Part shown: positions 3-7,120 of the stretch, one piece after another
Numbering within the stretch: position 1 is the stretch's first letter
How the letters are laid out: each line of letters opens with the position of its first letter
From: a virus
Length of the DNA stretch: 20,007 nt
Direction: 5' to 3' (one strand)
IMG/VR virus record: IMGVR_UViG_3300008459_000554
Location: 1 to 20,007 of that record
Position numbers and translations under genes: made by a program
The notes under the pieces: model-generated
What the model was told of the DNA's origin: nothing
The model's database searches: none
The model's input: the letters and a program-made list of their open reading frames with translations, nothing else

Positions 3-500
3 GGCTGTGGTACCTTTGTTAGCGGTCTTTACGCTCACGGTGAAGGTCAAGGTTCAACAGCTACCGGTACTGGATCGCACGCTGAAGGTATTACAACATG
101 CGCGTGCGGAACTGGTAGCCATTCAGCTGGTTATTCAACTCTAGCACAAGGTAATTATTCGTACGCTAGCGGGTCATTTAATTTTGCGTGTGGTATAGGA
201 TCACATGTCAGTGGTTCGACTAGCTCCGGCGTATATGGTAATTACGCATCTATTTTAGCGGGTCAAGGTCATACTAATTCTGGTCAATACTCTAGTATTA
301 TAGCTGGAGATACTAATACTATTTGCCCTACTGCAATAGGTTCTTCTATCTTAGCAGGTACTTCAGTAACAGCTCTATCAGCAGCTACAGCCTATACACC
401 ATGCTTGGTTCTTACAAATGTTCCTACCACCTCGGCTGGGAAGGGATCTGGAACAATTTGGAGATGTACAACCAATAATATACTCTATATTGTGCCTTAA
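3..500 (+). CDS. Tail fibre/adhesin with YadA-like beta-roll repeats (3' part only)
   Basis: The reading frame is open from the left edge to a TAA at 498-500, giving 165 residues of a longer protein whose start is outside the window. The visible part is rich in Gly, Ser, Thr and Ala. It shows degenerate repeats of the SHAEG / YASG / SHVSG kind, spaced about 7 or 14 residues apart, as in the left-handed parallel beta-roll of YadA-type trimeric adhesin heads. Phage fibres and host-range proteins often use such repeats. The last 50 or so residues are less repetitive and end in a compact segment (WRCTTNNILYIVP). Several cysteines are present, which is unusual for this fold. It lies directly upstream of the sugar-modifying genes and near the tailspike, which supports a role at the virion tip. 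The repeat type is seen in the sequence; the virion location is inferred. Confidence 0.7.
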   Translation, partial: GCGTFVSGLYAHGEGQGSTATGTGSHAEGITTCACGTGSHSAGYSTLAQGNYSYASGSFNFACGIGSHVSGSTSSGVYGNYASILAGQGHTNSGQYSSIIAGDTNTICPTAIGSSILAGTSVTALSAATAYTPCLVLTNVPTTSAGKGSGTIWRCTTNNILYIVP

Positions 501-536: not shown

Positions 537-1421
537 ATGAGTGATTTTGCTATTTTTCATATTGAAGGTGGTATTGGTAAGCATGTAGCAGCAACAGCTG
601 TAGTAGAATGTTATAAAAAAAACCACCCTGATACGCAAATCATTGTTGTTTGTGCATGGCCTGAGGTTTTTTTACTAAGTCCGTTTATTCATAGAGTCTA
701 TAGAATAGGTTCTGCTCCTTACTTTTATCAAGACTATATCTATAATAAAAAGGTAAAAGTATTTGCACAAGAGCCGTATAAACAAACATCTCATTTAACT
801 AAACAAAAACACCTTATTGAAACATGGTGTGATATGATTGGAGTAGAATACGGTAACGAAAGACCAAGAGTGTTTTTTAATTTTAGAGAGAAAGAGGTAG
901 GGTGTAAGTTGTTTGCGAAACTAGACAAACCTCTCCTCCTGTTTCAACCTTTTGGTGGGCCAGGTAAGGAACATCAACAACACCCATACTCTTGGACTAG
1001 AGACATTCATCCAGAAATTGCTCAACAATTGGTTAATAAACTATCTACTAAATATGATATTATCCATATCTGCTACGAGTTTCACCCTACGCTTCAAAAT
1101 TGTACTAGGTTTGATCAGATAGTTTCAAAGAAAGTACTATTTAACCTACTAGGTATTTCAGATGCACGCTTACTTATTGATTCGTCTCTACAACATGCTG
1201 CAGCTGCAATGAATCTACCTTCTACAGTGGTTTGGGTAGCTACAGAGTCAAAATTATTTGGTTACAGTATTCATAAAAACGTAGAGCCTGAGACTAAACA
1301 TTTGCAAGGTACTATCGACTCCTACTTGTTTGATTATAATTTTACAGGTACTATTCATGAATGTCCTTACAGTAGTCCTAATGAAATATTTAACATTGAT
1401 AAAATTCTAAGTACATTATGA
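537..1421 (+). CDS. GT9-like (heptosyltransferase-type) glycosyltransferase
   Basis: A protein of 294 residues. The N-terminus (FAIFHIEGGIGKHVAAT, residues 4-20) resembles the opening strand and glycine loop of ADP-heptose:LPS heptosyltransferases (GT9, GT-B fold). The stretch DARLLIDSSLQHAAAAMNLP (residues 209-228), followed by a valine/tryptophan strand and FGY, resembles the family's C-terminal donor-side motif with its conserved Asp, Ser, His and Ala residues. The predicted role is transfer of a sugar from a nucleotide donor to a surface glycan or protein; donor and acceptor cannot be read from the sequence. An in-frame TTG at 504 would add 11 residues. I chose ATG 537 because the family motif begins right after it. 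Neither candidate has a Shine-Dalgarno site or a late-promoter octamer. The stop overlaps the next start by 4 bases (ATGA), so the genes are probably co-transcribed. Confidence 0.6.
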   Translation: MSDFAIFHIEGGIGKHVAATAVVECYKKNHPDTQIIVVCAWPEVFLLSPFIHRVYRIGSAPYFYQDYIYNKKVKVFAQEPYKQTSHLTKQKHLIETWCDMIGVEYGNERPRVFFNFREKEVGCKLFAKLDKPLLLFQPFGGPGKEHQQHPYSWTRDIHPEIAQQLVNKLSTKYDIIHICYEFHPTLQNCTRFDQIVSKKVLFNLLGISDARLLIDSSLQHAAAAMNLPSTVVWVATESKLFGYSIHKNVEPETKHLQGTIDSYLFDYNFTGTIHECPYSSPNEIFNIDKILSTL

Positions 1422-2236
1422 AGAAGCTATTTTTTAATTCTTCCCTACCAAGAGCTGGTTCTACTCTACTACAAAATATCTTTGCTCAAAATCCTCAGTT
1501 TTACTGTACACCCACTTCAGGTACACTGGAGTTAATCTACGGTGCTAGAGCTAACTATAGTACCGATCCTACTTTTAAAGCTCAAGATCCTGTATTAATG
1601 GAGAAGGGATTCAGACAGTTTTGCTTTGATGGCTTACATGGATTCTATAATGCTATTACTGATAAACCTTATGTATTAGAGAAATCTAGAGGTTGGGGAA
1701 TTCACTATAAATTATTAGAATTTGTATTACAAGAGTCTCCTAAGGTAGTGTGCATGGTGAGAGACATAAAGCAGATTATATCTTCTATTGAATTAAAATT
1801 TAGAGAAAATCCTCAGCTTGACTCAGGTATAGTAAACCACGGGCAGTTAAAAAATACTACTACCCCTAAACGAGTTGATCACTATTTACAAACACCGCCT
1901 TTAGGAATTGCTATAGAAAGGATATCAGAAATTTTTAGACAAGGATTAAATGATAAAATATTTTTTATAAAATACGAGGATCTATGTAGTACGCCTGATA
2001 AAGTTATAAAAAATATCTACAACTATTTAAATGTACCTCCTTTTCTTTATCATAATTATAATTACATTGAGCAATCTACCCAGGAAGATGATAGTGTTTA
2101 TGGCGTGATTGGTGATCATAAAATTAAACCTGTACTTAAACTTACTGATAATACCCCTGAAAAAGTTTTAGGTAAAGATGTTTGTAATTGGATAGATAAT
2201 CATTTTAGATGGTATAATGAAATCTTTGGATATTAA
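1418..2236 (+). CDS. Sulfotransferase (PAPS-dependent family)
   Basis: A protein of 272 residues. PRAGST at residues 11-16 matches the 5'-phosphosulfate loop of PAPS-dependent sulfotransferases. VRD at 114-116 followed by SS at 122-123 matches the 3'-phosphate-binding Arg...Ser motif. KYEDL at 185-189 is the usual later family motif. EKSRGW (88-93) sits where the family often carries a substrate-side segment. The length is normal for the family. The enzyme should transfer sulfate from PAPS to a hydroxyl or amine, here most likely on a glycan given the flanking glycosyltransferases. It overlaps the upstream gene by 4 bases and the downstream gene by 20, so translation is probably coupled. No signal peptide or membrane segment is evident, so it should act in the host cytoplasm. 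The family call rests on motifs; the acceptor is unknown. Confidence 0.78.
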   Translation: MKKLFFNSSLPRAGSTLLQNIFAQNPQFYCTPTSGTLELIYGARANYSTDPTFKAQDPVLMEKGFRQFCFDGLHGFYNAITDKPYVLEKSRGWGIHYKLLEFVLQESPKVVCMVRDIKQIISSIELKFRENPQLDSGIVNHGQLKNTTTPKRVDHYLQTPPLGIAIERISEIFRQGLNDKIFFIKYEDLCSTPDKVIKNIYNYLNVPPFLYHNYNYIEQSTQEDDSVYGVIGDHKIKPVLKLTDNTPEKVLGKDVCNWIDNHFRWYNEIFGY

Positions 2237-2852
2237 TAATTTTTTTGATAGAGTCTATTACATTAACATGTGGAAGGATTATGATAGAAATCTCCACATA
2301 TTAGATCAATTTAAAAAATTCAATATTACTAATTATGAGAAAGTAGAAGGAGTAGAGGTAAAGGATATACCTAATATCTCACTTTACAGAAATTTCATTA
2401 AAAGAGATGAGTGTTACATTCAAGGAGCATTAGGATGTAGAGCAGCACATCTCAATATTATTAAAGATGCTATAGCTAAAGGTTATGAGAAAATATGCAT
2501 ATTTGAAGATGATGTAGAGTTCAGGGTAGATCCTAATATATTAATCCATCATAACTTTCTTAGTATAGAGAATTTTGATTTACTTTACTTTGGTGGCTTA
2601 CAGGAACAGGTTTTTAATAATCAAATAGTTCAGACTCATGCTATGGGTATTAATAGTAGAATATTTCAAGATATTCTCTATATGGCTGAAGCTTCAGGTA
2701 TGGAGATAGATAATTTTTATGCCAAAATTATTCAACAGATGAGTAAGAATAATAGAATTGGTGGTAAGTGTTTAGTTAAGAAAGTGGAACCTTTTAACTC
2801 AGTGATTCAATCTCCTAAATTTAATTCCAATATCAGAAAAGAACAGCACTAA
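2217..2852 (+). CDS. GT25-like glycosyltransferase (LPS/procollagen galactosyltransferase type)
   Basis: A protein of 211 residues. The start VYYINMWKDYDR (residues 13-24) matches the GT25 opening pattern of a hydrophobic strand, I-N, and a later D-R. ALGCRAAHLNI (71-81) matches the family's G-x-x-G-C-x-x-S/A-H motif. IFEDDV (95-100) gives the EDD metal/nucleotide-sugar site of this GT-A family. The C-terminal third is shorter and less typical than in bacterial LPS GT25 enzymes. It should add a sugar, classically galactose or glucose, to a glycan or hydroxylated side chain. It overlaps the sulfotransferase by 20 bases and is the last of three overlapping sugar-modifying genes. A late promoter for the next gene begins just past its TAA. 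The family call is fairly secure; substrates are unknown. Confidence 0.75.
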   Translation: MKSLDINNFFDRVYYINMWKDYDRNLHILDQFKKFNITNYEKVEGVEVKDIPNISLYRNFIKRDECYIQGALGCRAAHLNIIKDAIAKGYEKICIFEDDVEFRVDPNILIHHNFLSIENFDLLYFGGLQEQVFNNQIVQTHAMGINSRIFQDILYMAEASGMEIDNFYAKIIQQMSKNNRIGGKCLVKKVEPFNSVIQSPKFNSNIRKEQH

Positions 2853-2853
2853 C

Positions 2854-2861
2854 TATAAATA
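2854..2861 (+). promoter_or_regulatory. T4-type late promoter octamer TATAAATA
   Basis: A perfect TATAAATA lies 2 nt past the GT25-like stop and 5 nt (atgat) before ATG 2867. With T4 geometry (octamer at -13 to -6) transcription would start at the A of the ATG. Confidence 0.75.
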
Positions 2862-2866
2862 ATGAT

Positions 2867-3220
2867 ATGAGCCTATTAAACTTTGATCAACTCACACCAC
2901 CAACAAAAGAACAGCAGTTAGCTAGCTTAGCTGCGCGTATTAAGGAAATGTCTAAGCAAACTTTTAGACAGTTAGTAGACACCCAAAAGAGAGGTATTGA
3001 AATGGTCTGGGAAAATAGAAATTTTACACCTCAGGAAGTAATTGATGCTTTAGGTGCTGATGCGGTTAAGGTATTCCAATATCACGGAGCTCTCACTACA
3101 TTTATAAATGAATTGATTGCACTTGATGGTGCTAATGTAGATGTCAAATTACCAACCAATGAGTTTACAGTAAGTAATGGTAAGATCACTGTTGGTACTG
3201 GTCCATACACTGGTAGCTAA
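2867..3220 (+). CDS. Small hypothetical protein, probable virion or tail component
   Basis: A protein of 117 residues that I cannot assign to a named family. Residues about 15-50 are predicted helical and mixed-charge (KEQQLASLAARIKEMSKQTF). A FTPQEVIDALGADAVKVFQ segment follows, then a short beta-like C-terminus (LPTNEFTVSNGKITVGTG). The pattern recalls small uncharacterised proteins of marine T4-like phages, but that is from memory and untested. It has its own late promoter and is followed by a strong terminator, so it appears to form a one-gene late transcription unit. It sits between the glycosyltransferase island and the fibre/tailspike genes, which suggests a late structural or assembly role. 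No signal peptide, membrane segment or catalytic motif is visible. Confidence 0.6.
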   Translation: MSLLNFDQLTPPTKEQQLASLAARIKEMSKQTFRQLVDTQKRGIEMVWENRNFTPQEVIDALGADAVKVFQYHGALTTFINELIALDGANVDVKLPTNEFTVSNGKITVGTGPYTGS

Positions 3221-3250
3221 GTTAACTACTAGTAAAAAGCTGATCTCAAT

Positions 3251-3286
3251 AACAGAGAGAGTCCTAGGACTCTCTCGCTCTGTTTT
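3251..3286 (+). terminator. Rho-independent terminator with 22-bp perfect palindrome
   Basis: Bases 3255-3276 form a perfect inverted repeat centred on CCTAGG. An alternative outer pairing joins AACAGAG (3251-3257) to CTCTGTT (3278-3284). The hairpin is followed by TTTT at 3283-3286. It lies 31 nt after the stop at 3220 and immediately before the next late promoter, so it separates two transcription units. Confidence 0.8.
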
Positions 3287-3294
3287 AATAAATA
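3287..3294 (+). promoter_or_regulatory. T4-type late promoter octamer AATAAATA
   Basis: The octamer AATAAATA ends 5 nt (atagt) before ATG 3300. It begins directly after the terminator's T-run, giving a terminator, promoter and start codon back to back. It supports ATG 3300 over upstream in-frame codons that would read through the terminator. Confidence 0.72.
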
Positions 3295-3299
3295 ATAGT

Positions 3300-3935
3300 A
3301 TGGCTGATACCAAGATCTCACAACTACCAGTTGCCAATACGGTAGCACAATCAGAGTATATTATAATAGACGATGGAGTAGTAACTAGAATCACCCCTGT
3401 AATAAATCTATCTTCTCTGTTTACCCCTAATACAATTTTTAATAATTTAAGTACATCTAACTGGAACAGTACATATACAACGGTTAAGGCAAACAGTGGT
3501 TATTGGAACTCCGTATATTCTTCGTTTATAACTTTAAGTGCTCAATTAATAACAGATGTTACAACTCTTAGTACAGAACTTACTACAGATGTACTAGAGA
3601 TAAGCTCATTTGTAAATGATAAATTCAACAAAGTAACTCTAGGTACTGCATCAACCAATATAGTATTAACCGGTGCTGATAGTGGTAAGCTTATAACCTA
3701 TTCCAACACTTCTAACATAACAGCATACATAACGCCTGGTATTAATACTACAGGTTATACTGCATCATTAGCTCAGCTCTCTTCTGGTACTATAAAAATA
3801 GCAGTAAGCGGAACATATACCACGGGAAATCTTATAACCTACGGCGGGTTAGTAGAAACAGCGGGTGTCGGAGCAACTGCAAATATAACAAGAGTAGCAG
3901 ATAATACATTCTTACTTACAGGTCTATTACAATGA
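3300..3935 (+). CDS. Tail fibre-type structural protein (TKISQLP N-terminus)
   Basis: A protein of 211 residues beginning MADTKISQLP, an N-terminal motif (xTKIS-LP) common in phage tail fibre and tail-tip proteins. Residues about 50-110 are rich in Ser, Thr and Asn with regularly spaced hydrophobics, including two related segments (TSNWNSTYTTVKAN, SGYWNSVYSSF), and look like a trimeric fibre shaft. Residues about 115-211 are beta-rich and Gly/Thr-rich. The reading frame is open upstream to 3177, but that region holds the terminator and promoter, so ATG 3300 is the start. The stop overlaps the tailspike start by 4 bases (ATGA), so this protein may be the linker or first subunit that carries the tailspike. 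No enzymatic motif is seen. A structural role is likely; its exact place in the tail is inferred. Confidence 0.65.
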   Translation: MADTKISQLPVANTVAQSEYIIIDDGVVTRITPVINLSSLFTPNTIFNNLSTSNWNSTYTTVKANSGYWNSVYSSFITLSAQLITDVTTLSTELTTDVLEISSFVNDKFNKVTLGTASTNIVLTGADSGKLITYSNTSNITAYITPGINTTGYTASLAQLSSGTIKIAVSGTYTTGNLITYGGLVETAGVGATANITRVADNTFLLTGLLQ

Positions 3936-6900
3936 TACCAGCACTTACTATAGTACCGAAGAGAGATATTAACGGGCCTGGATCACGTGATTATTCTTCA
4001 CGTGATACAATCTATGTATCTCCTACAGGTAAAGATGGGTATCTCGGATATACACCTGAACTACCTACCAAGACTTTAGATAATGTAAAAGAAATTACTC
4101 AAAAATTAAAAACCGGGCCATCAAAAGATCTAAAGGTGGAGTTTTTAGGTGGTAAGTATACTGCTAGAGACTTCTTCTTTAAGAATGATAAATTTACCTA
4201 CTTTAAGCATTATGAAAATGGTAATAATAACTATTCATTGACATTTAAACCATATAGTAATCAGTATGTTGAATTTGATAATTCAACTTCTTACACAGGC
4301 TTTGTAAGTGCGGGTAGTTTATGGAAGATTAAAATAAACGAAAGTGATATTCGTAAGTGTAACATGTTTGGATTTGTAAATGGTATTAGATCAGTACCTG
4401 CTAGATTTCCTAAATATGGAAACTTATCTGAATATACAAAAGTAACATACGGAGGTCAGCAATATATTAAAATACCAGATTCCTCAGGATTTCTAAAGTG
4501 CATGCAGTCGTATTTAACTGCAGGAAATAATCCAAATTCGTTAGGAGGATTTTATACTCTTGGATTCGAGTATTTTGGAAATACCTATTTACAAACTATT
4601 ACAGCTAATCCCCCAGGCTCTACTTTTGAAGAAAATGTATTTTATATAAAACCTTCTGTATCTAATTTAAGCTACTCTTATCAATTCTTTGCTAATCAAT
4701 CATCTATATATCAGCCTCGGTACTCTCCTTATGAATACTATTCTTTTAATACAGATATAAGGTATTACCAGCTTACTGCAGCTCCTGATTTTATCATAAA
4801 TTACCTTGGATATGCTACTGTTCAGGATTATGTTAATGATATAGAAACTCTTGGAATAGTTAATGATATATATAATTATGAAAATACTACACCTGACGGT
4901 GGCACTATATATTATTTTAATAATACACCTCTACAAACAACAATTGATCTAAATCCACCTGGTACTAATTGGTTTACATCAATAGCTGAAGGTAATGTTA
5001 TACTATTAGATCCTTATCTATATAAACCATCAAATTTAGATCCATATATAGTTTGTACTGTAAAGGGAGAAAATACTATTATATTAGAAAATAATGAATA
5101 TTGGTTTTATTATAAACCTAGTACATTCGATGTAACTGTAGGTATACAGAATTCTATACTAGAAACTTATGACGCTGGTAATACTTCACAATGGTTAAAT
5201 TCAGGATCAACGAGAACGAGTAATAGTCCTACAAACGGCGCCTTTAAATACGGTCTAAAAACTGCAGACGGATATTCTTATACAGAAGGAGATAATTTTG
5301 AAGGTGCAAATAGTGTAGGGTTTAATTTTACATCGCCTCAAAACATTAAGTTATTAAATCTTAACTTTAAGCATTGCTTAGTACCAATTACTCTTAATAC
5401 ACCTAGTAGCGCGTATAGTACTGGCGCAGCATCTATAGATAATTTTATAAGTGAGTTTACGGGTAATATATCTATTACTGGTTGTAACATGTATTATAAC
5501 TTTGGTTCAGCGTTAGTAGCTAGAAATCTTAAAAATACATCCATTAGTAAGAATTTAATTTATAGTGCGGAAAATAATGGCTTATCGCTCATGTGCGGTA
5601 GAGATATTGTTATTGAAAATAATATCGTAAAAAATACACAACATGTAAATACCACATTTAATGGAGAAAATGGGATAGGCCTAGGTAACATTCGCGTAAG
5701 CGGTGAGTACTTTAATAATACTCATGATTCTCGTACCTTAACAGGTGCTAAGGTATCTAATAACGACCTTAGTTACGGAGGAAACAATCTATGTATGGGT
5801 GCGATGAGAAGTGTTTCTGCATTCAATAACAGAATTAGATATGCTGGATTCGGTGCTAATAATGATATGGGAGCTATGTACGATGGCTTCTCCTATGTAG
5901 GTGGAGAAGAAACTAGAAACAAATACTATAACAACTTTGTAAGTTATGCGCGCGCAGCAACTAATAATAGCTTTTTAGGAAACCTTGTATACCTTGATGG
6001 TAATACAAATGGACCGTATTTTTATAATAATATATTAGCCTTCGGTCAAACTGGCATACAGCATACTAGTACAGATTCTCCATATATTTCTAATAATATT
6101 ATCTACAATACTCGTGTTGATAGCATTGTAAATAAATCTAATTTTGGTAATTTACCTTCTAACGTTAAATTTACTAAAAATATTTTTGTACCAGGTCTAG
6201 GGTATGATAACAATATATCATATGCATTTTACGGTTGGAACGGTAATAGCGTAAATTCTAGAACAATATCTACTCAGCCTTATAACTGTGATTATGCATA
6301 TGGTAGTTCTTCTGTTAGAAGCCTAGTTCCCATATCGCCTTGGAAAGGCAAAATTAGGTATTCAGCAATAGATGGAGGTGGAGTATACACTATTTCTATT
6401 GATGCTCCAATGGTATTATTCGATGGTAGTAATTGGATAGTTGGTAACTATGCTCCAAATAATGTAGGACCTTCTTTTATTGATGGTGTATACTTAACAT
6501 TATCTTCTTCAGGTACAGGTAGCTATGAAAATCCGTGGGATGTACCGGTAGAAAAGTGGGTATATGTAAGAGGTGGAAACTTTTATAATAATTTTATAGG
6601 TATAACTAGAAGTACAACAAGAAGAAGCAATACAGCTTCCCCAGCACTATCATCAGATAACAATCTTTTCTGGTCTCTAGCATCACCAGTAGCAAATCCT
6701 GAAATTACTAATACATTTTTTAAATACAGTCATTTTAATGGAACCTCTTTTAAAGAGATATCTTCAATAGCTGCTATTCCAGATCCAATAAAAATAAACG
6801 ATAATTCCGTACCTAGTGTATTTGGAGATGTTCAAATATTAGAGAAAAATTCAAAACTATCAGACCCTCTATTTACAGACCCTGTTAATTTAGACTTTAC

Positions 6901-7120
6901 TCTTCTACCTGGTTCACCAGCTTACGATATAGGGTTCCAAGATATTGATATGAGTAATCTAGGTGTATACAATACATCGGATGATCCTTACTGGACATTA
7001 TCAGCTGCTAATCTTATAGGTCAGCCAGTTATCAACGGCAATAAATACTGGGCAGATTATACGACTATACCTTACCCATACAATCACCTAGTTGAATACA
7101 ATGCTCCACAGGTGAATTAA
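3932..7120 (+). CDS. Tailspike with right-handed parallel beta-helix (pectate-lyase-like)
   Basis: A protein of 1062 residues. Residues about 26-75 (IYVSPTGKDG, then GYTPELPTKTLDN, then VEFLGGKYT) match the entry segment of pectate-lyase-like and DUF1565-type beta-helix proteins. Residues about 500-780 contain many short strand/Asn-turn repeats (NNGLS, ENNIVKN, YNNFVS, YNNILAF, SNNIIYN), the typical signature of a right-handed beta-helix. Near the C-terminus DPLFTDPVNLDFTLLPGSPA matches the closing segment of many polysaccharide lyases and related repeats. It probably binds or cleaves a surface polysaccharide of the host. The catalytic residues cannot be identified by eye, so lyase, hydrolase or binding only remain open. 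It is co-transcribed with the upstream fibre-type gene and converges with the neck gene, the two stops overlapping by 4 bases. Confidence 0.78.
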   Translation: MIPALTIVPKRDINGPGSRDYSSRDTIYVSPTGKDGYLGYTPELPTKTLDNVKEITQKLKTGPSKDLKVEFLGGKYTARDFFFKNDKFTYFKHYENGNNNYSLTFKPYSNQYVEFDNSTSYTGFVSAGSLWKIKINESDIRKCNMFGFVNGIRSVPARFPKYGNLSEYTKVTYGGQQYIKIPDSSGFLKCMQSYLTAGNNPNSLGGFYTLGFEYFGNTYLQTITANPPGSTFEENVFYIKPSVSNLSYSYQFFANQSSIYQPRYSPYEYYSFNTDIRYYQLTAAPDFIINYLGYATVQDYVNDIETLGIVNDIYNYENTTPDGGTIYYFNNTPLQTTIDLNPPGTNWFTSIAEGNVILLDPYLYKPSNLDPYIVCTVKGENTIILENNEYWFYYKPSTFDVTVGIQNSILETYDAGNTSQWLNSGSTRTSNSPTNGAFKYGLKTADGYSYTEGDNFEGANSVGFNFTSPQNIKLLNLNFKHCLVPITLNTPSSAYSTGAASIDNFISEFTGNISITGCNMYYNFGSALVARNLKNTSISKNLIYSAENNGLSLMCGRDIVIENNIVKNTQHVNTTFNGENGIGLGNIRVSGEYFNNTHDSRTLTGAKVSNNDLSYGGNNLCMGAMRSVSAFNNRIRYAGFGANNDMGAMYDGFSYVGGEETRNKYYNNFVSYARAATNNSFLGNLVYLDGNTNGPYFYNNILAFGQTGIQHTSTDSPYISNNIIYNTRVDSIVNKSNFGNLPSNVKFTKNIFVPGLGYDNNISYAFYGWNGNSVNSRTISTQPYNCDYAYGSSSVRSLVPISPWKGKIRYSAIDGGGVYTISIDAPMVLFDGSNWIVGNYAPNNVGPSFIDGVYLTLSSSGTGSYENPWDVPVEKWVYVRGGNFYNNFIGITRSTTRRSNTASPALSSDNNLFWSLASPVANPEITNTFFKYSHFNGTSFKEISSIAAIPDPIKINDNSVPSVFGDVQILEKNSKLSDPLFTDPVNLDFTLLPGSPAYDIGFQDIDMSNLGVYNTSDDPYWTLSAANLIGQPVINGNKYWADYTTIPYPYNHLVEYNAPQVN

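Follow-up and report, generated by a model that had tools for sequence, protein, structure and literature searches.

The window analysed here, a 20,007-base virus fragment that is also the whole record, belongs to an aquatic T4-like phage whose terminase is nearest to those of Pelagibacter phage HTVC008M, phiM9 and cyanophages (~35-40% identity). Three transferase genes, encoding a GT9-fold glycosyltransferase, a PAPS-dependent sulfotransferase (ST) and a GT25 glycosyltransferase, come after the 3' part of a beta-roll fibre gene (Table 1). All three lie on the plus strand, and their coordinates bear out the overlaps reported in the initial annotation, 4 bases between GT9 and ST and 20 bases between ST and GT25; the GT9-like frame has its ATG start at 537 and an in-frame TTG at 504.

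Table 1. Genes in and around the transferase trio (positions in the window)
Feature	Position	Strand	Product	Remarks
Beta-roll (YadA/UspA1-like) fibre gene, C-terminal part	3..500	+	165 aa	cut by contig start; proposed acceptor
GT9-fold glycosyltransferase	537..1421	+	294 aa	model, fold search
PAPS-dependent sulfotransferase (ST)	1418..2236	+	272 aa	Pfam, model
GT25 glycosyltransferase	2217..2852	+	211 aa	Pfam PF01755
Small conserved gene	2867..3220	+	117 aa	homologues in other phages
Possible fibre or baseplate adaptor	3300..3935	+	211 aa	context only
Spike-like protein, weak beta-helix match	3932..7120	+	1062 aa	context only

The trio had been described as lying between a YadA-like fibre gene and a tailspike operon. 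The fibre side of this description stands: the fibre fragment, for which no Pfam match over cut-off was found, is 44-46% identical to fibre ends in L002-L005, and the full-length fibre of L003 matches the trimeric-adhesin repeat UspA1_rep (PF18792) at 1e-38. On the spike side, two small genes intervene and the beta-helix match of the spike-like frame (PF13229, E 0.007) is below cut-off. The product of the first small gene has homologues at 39-47% identity in L015, L016, L018, L022, L028, L048-L050 and L081, which come after the cassette in several phages, including some with other gene orders; the gene may be part of the module, or of a head-completion block. The product of the second is 27% identical to those of same-position genes in L002-L004 and L006. 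Two long proteins encoded in the tail-gene region of L003 (7746-9491 and 9518-12814) have, by eye, a trypsin-type and a subtilisin-type protease look (GDSGTP and GTSFACP motifs).

Families and folds of the three enzymes

The GT9-like protein gave no match in its own Pfam search, and 21 of its 40 homologues matched Glyco_transf_9 (PF01075) weakly (best E 8e-4); its PHROGs match, PHROG 8954, is a family without annotated function. A profile search of the family against solved structures gave no match, and it was the fold search that placed it: the structure closest to the AlphaFold model (pLDDT 92.9) was 3tov (VIA-align Z 23.4, rmsd 3.1 over 268 residues), followed by WaaF (1psw, Z 20.3), TibC (4rap, Z 19.5) and WaaC (2h1h, Z 19.5). 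The model superposes full-length on GT9 structures, while other GT-B folds reach only Z ~10. In hhalign the family aligned with WaaF/WaaC at E 3.5e-5 over DSSLQHAAAAMNLPS, with a C-terminal donor-site motif common to both. The GT-B fold and the C-terminal donor motif (DSG..H.AAAL) place the protein in GT9. We did not, however, assign it to the heptosyltransferases WaaC, WaaF and TibC, because their catalytic base is not conserved: at the place of Asp13 (Asp110 in TibC) stands an invariant Lys15, an equivalence read from sequence by setting GGIGKH ungapped against WaaF SWVGDM, the hhalign match being without the N-terminus. The extra parts of TibC, an N-terminal beta-barrel and an iron-finger insertion (PMC4358343), are missing, which sets the protein apart from the TibC-like BAHT enzymes; the 294-residue model is the GT core, with which TibC aligns from its residue 95 onward. 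For P0001, no relatives were found among the plasmid collection.

The ST matched Pfam PF13469 (E 1e-12) and PF00685 (E 1e-9), both over cut-off, and its model has a pLDDT of 91.9. It carries the 5'-PSB loop and the 3'-PB Arg/Ser of PAPS sulfotransferases (Sulfotransfer_3), and the PAPS-site residues P11, R12, S15, T16, R115 and S123 are invariant in 33 homologues. The nearest structures were human and tick tyrosylprotein sulfotransferases (Z 19.4-19.9, TPST1 highest at 19.9; the next class reached 15.5), and the profile was likewise nearest to TPST1/2 (E 1e-14). The catalytic Glu of TPSTs, which we take to lie in their CGEET segment, is nevertheless not conserved, the aligned column being a nearly invariant Pro32, and for this reason we did not place the ST in the TPST subfamily. 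It is TPST-like in fold but, as judged from this alignment, without the TPST catalytic base.

The GT25 protein matched PF01755 over cut-off (E 2e-11) and has the acidic EDD motif of the family, E97, D98 and D99 being invariant in 21 homologues. Its profile is nearest to procollagen galactosyltransferase 1 (E 1e-9) and also to Mimivirus R655, a proximity that is no proof of the acceptor, because solved GT25 structures are few. The three family calls of the initial annotation were thus upheld: GT9-like by the structure search, PAPS-type sulfotransferase by PF13469/PF00685 and the fold search, and GT25-like by PF01755.

Linkage to beta-roll fibres, adhesins and sulfate activation

Viral-contig relatives from divergent phages show at least seven arrangements of the trio, differing in gene order or orientation: GT9>ST>GT25 (the window, L007, L023, L026), GT9>GT25>ST (L010-L014, L019, L021, L024), GT25>GT9>ST (L022), ST>GT25>GT9 (L202), <ST GT25> GT9> (L015, L016, L018), <ST GT25> <GT9 (L009) and GT25> <ST <GT9 (L020). 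That the trio is reshuffled without being split favours joint function over an inherited operon order. The close GT25 clade has 33 loci, of which 19 contain both partners and several of the others are truncated contigs; none of 13 loci with distant GT25s contains both (p 2e-4), a control that rules out the idea that any GT25 shows the linkage. The divergences of the GT9, ST and GT25 proteins correlate (Spearman 0.54-0.66 over 17 loci, Mantel p 5e-4), and in two large phages with GT25 apart (373 and 207 kb) ST and GT9 still lie within ~2 kb of each other, adjoining repeat-rich or beta-roll genes. GT9 is the core of the cassette and GT25 is optional: many marine relatives have the fibre and GT9 alone (L030-L046, L052-L053), L002-L006 and L060 have the fibre, GT9 and ST, and other relatives carry all three enzymes. 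Many phages have GT9 but no ST, which shows the sugar step to be independent. Conservation as a unit, the synteny check set beforehand, was therefore found, though with shuffled order and an optional GT25.

Further genes accompany the cassette in some relatives. Beside the trio of L008 are two more sulfotransferase-like genes (2243-3820 and 4100-5158) and a radical-SAM-like gene (CNARCPMC). In L015 (282-2850), L029 (366-2926), L030 and L040 the fibre/GT9 block is preceded upstream by genes that by eye resemble those of dTDP-sugar synthesis (RmlA-, RmlB- and reductase-like), possibly a donor supply.

All 24 GT9-like clusters (70% identity) have a beta-roll-like gene in the flank, within ~6 kb, directly adjacent in 12 and at most two genes off in 16. 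Genes near the cassette were beta-roll-like more often than genes further away (21/70 versus 11/114, p 6e-4), by a loose blastp criterion with the low-complexity filter off, which Pfam backs for only some of the fibres tested; in several cassette-linked fibres Pfam found trimeric-adhesin repeats or the S74 chaperone domain. A cultured Pelagibacter phage, HTVC112P, has a GT homologue whose gene overlaps that of a beta-roll tail fibre (S74 domain) by 1 base; in L068, L071, L026 and others a fibre-like gene is 5-7 genes off. A first adjacency test of the viral ST alone against repeats (7/60 near, 55/263 far) was uninformative, since the gene between ST and fibre is usually GT9. Linkage within phages can also reflect the clustering of late genes.

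The ST-bearing loci also bear on the supply of sulfate. An APS kinase (PF01583) occurs in the fetched stretch of 21 of 51 ST-bearing viral loci and in none of 31 loci without ST, a difference whose p of 1e-5 is overstated, the sequences not being independent, and with five weak matches among the 21 (L020, L071, L075, L076, L080; E about 1e-6 to 1e-4). The kinase is generally accompanied by a CTP-transferase-like nucleotidyltransferase, which could be an unrecognised ATP sulfurylase, and a DUF2061 membrane protein; this unit lies beside ST/GT9 in L243 (9305-10385), L024 (8085-9095) and L242 (6486-7563), and also in L056, L057, L061-L063, L065, L066 and L068. It was not found in the window, itself a fragment. 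The co-occurrence supports real PAPS-dependent sulfation. Viral cysC is routinely counted as a sulfur-cycle auxiliary metabolic gene (AMG) of assimilatory sulfate reduction (e.g. PMC9789665); for the APS kinases found here, provision of PAPS for sulfation seems the simpler reading.

In cells, ST homologues adjoin YadA-type adhesins in Synechococcus (L089) and in a second cyanobacterial genome (L190), and a bacterium with a 0.6-Mb genome (L091) has two GT9-like genes and an ST near a beta-roll-like protein; across 287 genomes of its phylum, GT9-like genes were found in this one only. Over 65 cellular loci, repeat-rich products made up 38 of 94 larger genes next to ST and 14 of 167 further away (p 1e-9), and more distant sulfotransferases directly adjoin giant DUF4347/Ig-like or RTX proteins. 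The adhesin linkage in bacteria is the strongest argument for the repeat protein as substrate.

Two patterns recur among the bacterial loci. In L098, L111, L142, L123, L139 and ~30 more, an ST-superfamily gene precedes that of a giant repeat protein by a few tens of bases, some of these proteins having DUF4347 and Ig-like domains, which suggests that adhesin sulfation is widespread in Proteobacteria. In the cyanobacterial loci L193, L195, L198 and L157, RTX-type repeat proteins come before or after the ST; they form a family whose members have an N-terminal region in common.

A putative modification cassette for the fibre

We propose, with a probability of roughly 60%, that the trio is a post-translational modification cassette that glycosylates and sulfates the neighbouring beta-roll fibre. 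This proposal builds on the families and folds, the recurrent linkage, the co-occurrence with an APS kinase and the adhesin linkage in cells; from these we infer that the fibre accepts the modification, in which order the enzymes act, which sugar they use, where the sulfate lands and what the phage gains. The GT9-fold enzyme would most likely work in the host cytoplasm, while the virion is being assembled or earlier, and transfer a sugar to repeated Ser/Thr (or another hydroxyl) along the trimeric beta-roll shaft. GT25, where present, would probably add a further sugar or serve a second kind of site, and the ST would use PAPS to sulfate either the sugar or the protein itself, for example at tyrosine. 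The phage might gain a stiffer or more soluble shaft, shielding from proteases, or altered adsorption or diffusion; this benefit is a guess.

The best reading of the cassette takes TibC/TibA plus a sulfotransferase as a working model. TibC, a GT9-like enzyme, glycosylates Ser of the beta-solenoid adhesin TibA (PMC4358343), and we regard the pair as the closest working analogue of GT9 and fibre, without claiming membership. As with TibC/TibA and AAH/AIDA-I, the bacterial autotransporter heptosyltransferase systems (PMC4358343), a GT9-like GT-B enzyme would be dedicated to a repeat-built surface adhesin; unlike TibC, the 294-aa enzyme has no N-terminal beta-barrel, has Lys15 at the Asp110/Asp13 place, and is phage-encoded with ST and GT25 alongside. 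RaxST and the eukaryotic TPSTs (PMC6637879; PDB 3ap1, 5wri) are PAPS sulfotransferases of the same fold, and the gene of RaxST adjoins that of its protein substrate (PMC6637879); the phage ST differs in its catalytic Glu column, and its target is apparently the fibre or adhesin, possibly its sugar. Phage glycosyltransferases that modify virion proteins are known from mycobacteriophages (Freeman et al. 2023, via PMC12619734), where the targets are capsid and tail tube; neither a sulfotransferase nor an APS kinase is mentioned there.

A compatible variant of the cassette would have the ST sulfating shaft tyrosines directly, independently of any glycan. TPST1/2 are its nearest relatives by both fold and profile, tyrosine makes up 4-5% of the fibres, and in the Synechococcus draft genome, where the ST is paired with the YadA adhesin, no GT9-like gene was found, which favours protein sulfation or a glycan made by other enzymes. 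Pro32 in place of the TPST catalytic Glu argues the other way, as does the constant company of GT9 in the ST-anchored viral scan, and we consider the variant rather unlikely.

The initial annotation had left the choice between a sulfated glycan on fibre or tail proteins and a remodelled host surface that blocks superinfection or keeps the tailspike from trapping progeny. On the second reading, the enzymes would extend and sulfate the LPS or capsule of the infected cell, either against superinfection or so that freed virions do not adhere to debris. Some of the closest solved structures belong to enzymes that modify proteins (tyrosylprotein sulfotransferase, procollagen galactosyltransferase, and TibC among the GT9 folds). 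The GT9 fold, however, also spans the LPS heptosyltransferases WaaF and WaaC, WaaF tying with TibC; GT25 contains LPS biosynthesis enzymes (Pfam description); and sugar-nucleotide synthesis genes seem, by eye, to lie upstream in some relatives. Remodelling leaves unexplained why GT9 and ST are linked to beta-roll fibres in varied phages and to adhesins in cells, it sits poorly with the invariant Lys15 at the Asp13 place, and no membrane anchor was noticed. Superinfection exclusion in particular is demoted as the leading idea because the cell-encoded homologues pair with adhesins, where exclusion is irrelevant. The modified-fibre alternative has thus gained strong contextual support and the host-surface one none; we judge the latter improbable.

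T4-like phages are known for DNA glucosylation, and the PHROGs match of the GT25 protein is labelled glucosyltransferase; that the trio modifies phage DNA (e.g. glycosylated bases) or another virion part, with the fibre a mere neighbour, is nonetheless very improbable, since a PAPS sulfotransferase accompanied by an APS kinase of its own is unsuited to DNA glucosylation and the cell-encoded versions adjoin adhesins.

The sulfotransferase genes reported from cyanophages and an OM43 phage (S-SRM01, S-SKS1, S-SCSM1) are homologous to the ST at 25-31% identity, and their report, a 2023 paper that calls phage sulfotransferase function unclear, describes no module with GT9, GT25, fibre or APS kinase (PMC10580990). 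The S-SRM01 gene sits in a glycosyltransferase/epimerase cluster; no fibre or glycan context was found around those of S-SKS1 and S-SCSM1, so the linkage belongs to the closer clade. In the limited literature set, no paper was found that links a phage sulfotransferase with a glycosyltransferase and a fibre, in line with the initial statement that no T4-like pathway with this exact trio is known to have been described, and the papers found include no sulfated phage virion protein. Phage virion glycosylation is already known; a module that both glycosylates and sulfates tail fibres and brings its own PAPS step would be a new form of it.

More tentatively, and at somewhat less than even odds, we suggest a mobile, self-supplied protein-sulfation system, in which APS kinase, the nucleotidyltransferase and the DUF2061 protein would provide PAPS, ST with GT9/GT25 would furnish beta-roll tail fibres with a sulfated glycan or sulfotyrosine, and the same superfamily would act on giant bacterial adhesins. 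In that case, part of the viral cysC genes at present taken for sulfur-assimilation AMGs would work for fibre sulfation. If the proposed fibre modification is true, it would give phage sulfotransferases a role, offer another reading of viral cysC and point to a pairing of sulfotransferase and adhesin that is wide in bacteria; the cultured HTVC112P, with a glycosyltransferase and a fibre, carries its simplest version.
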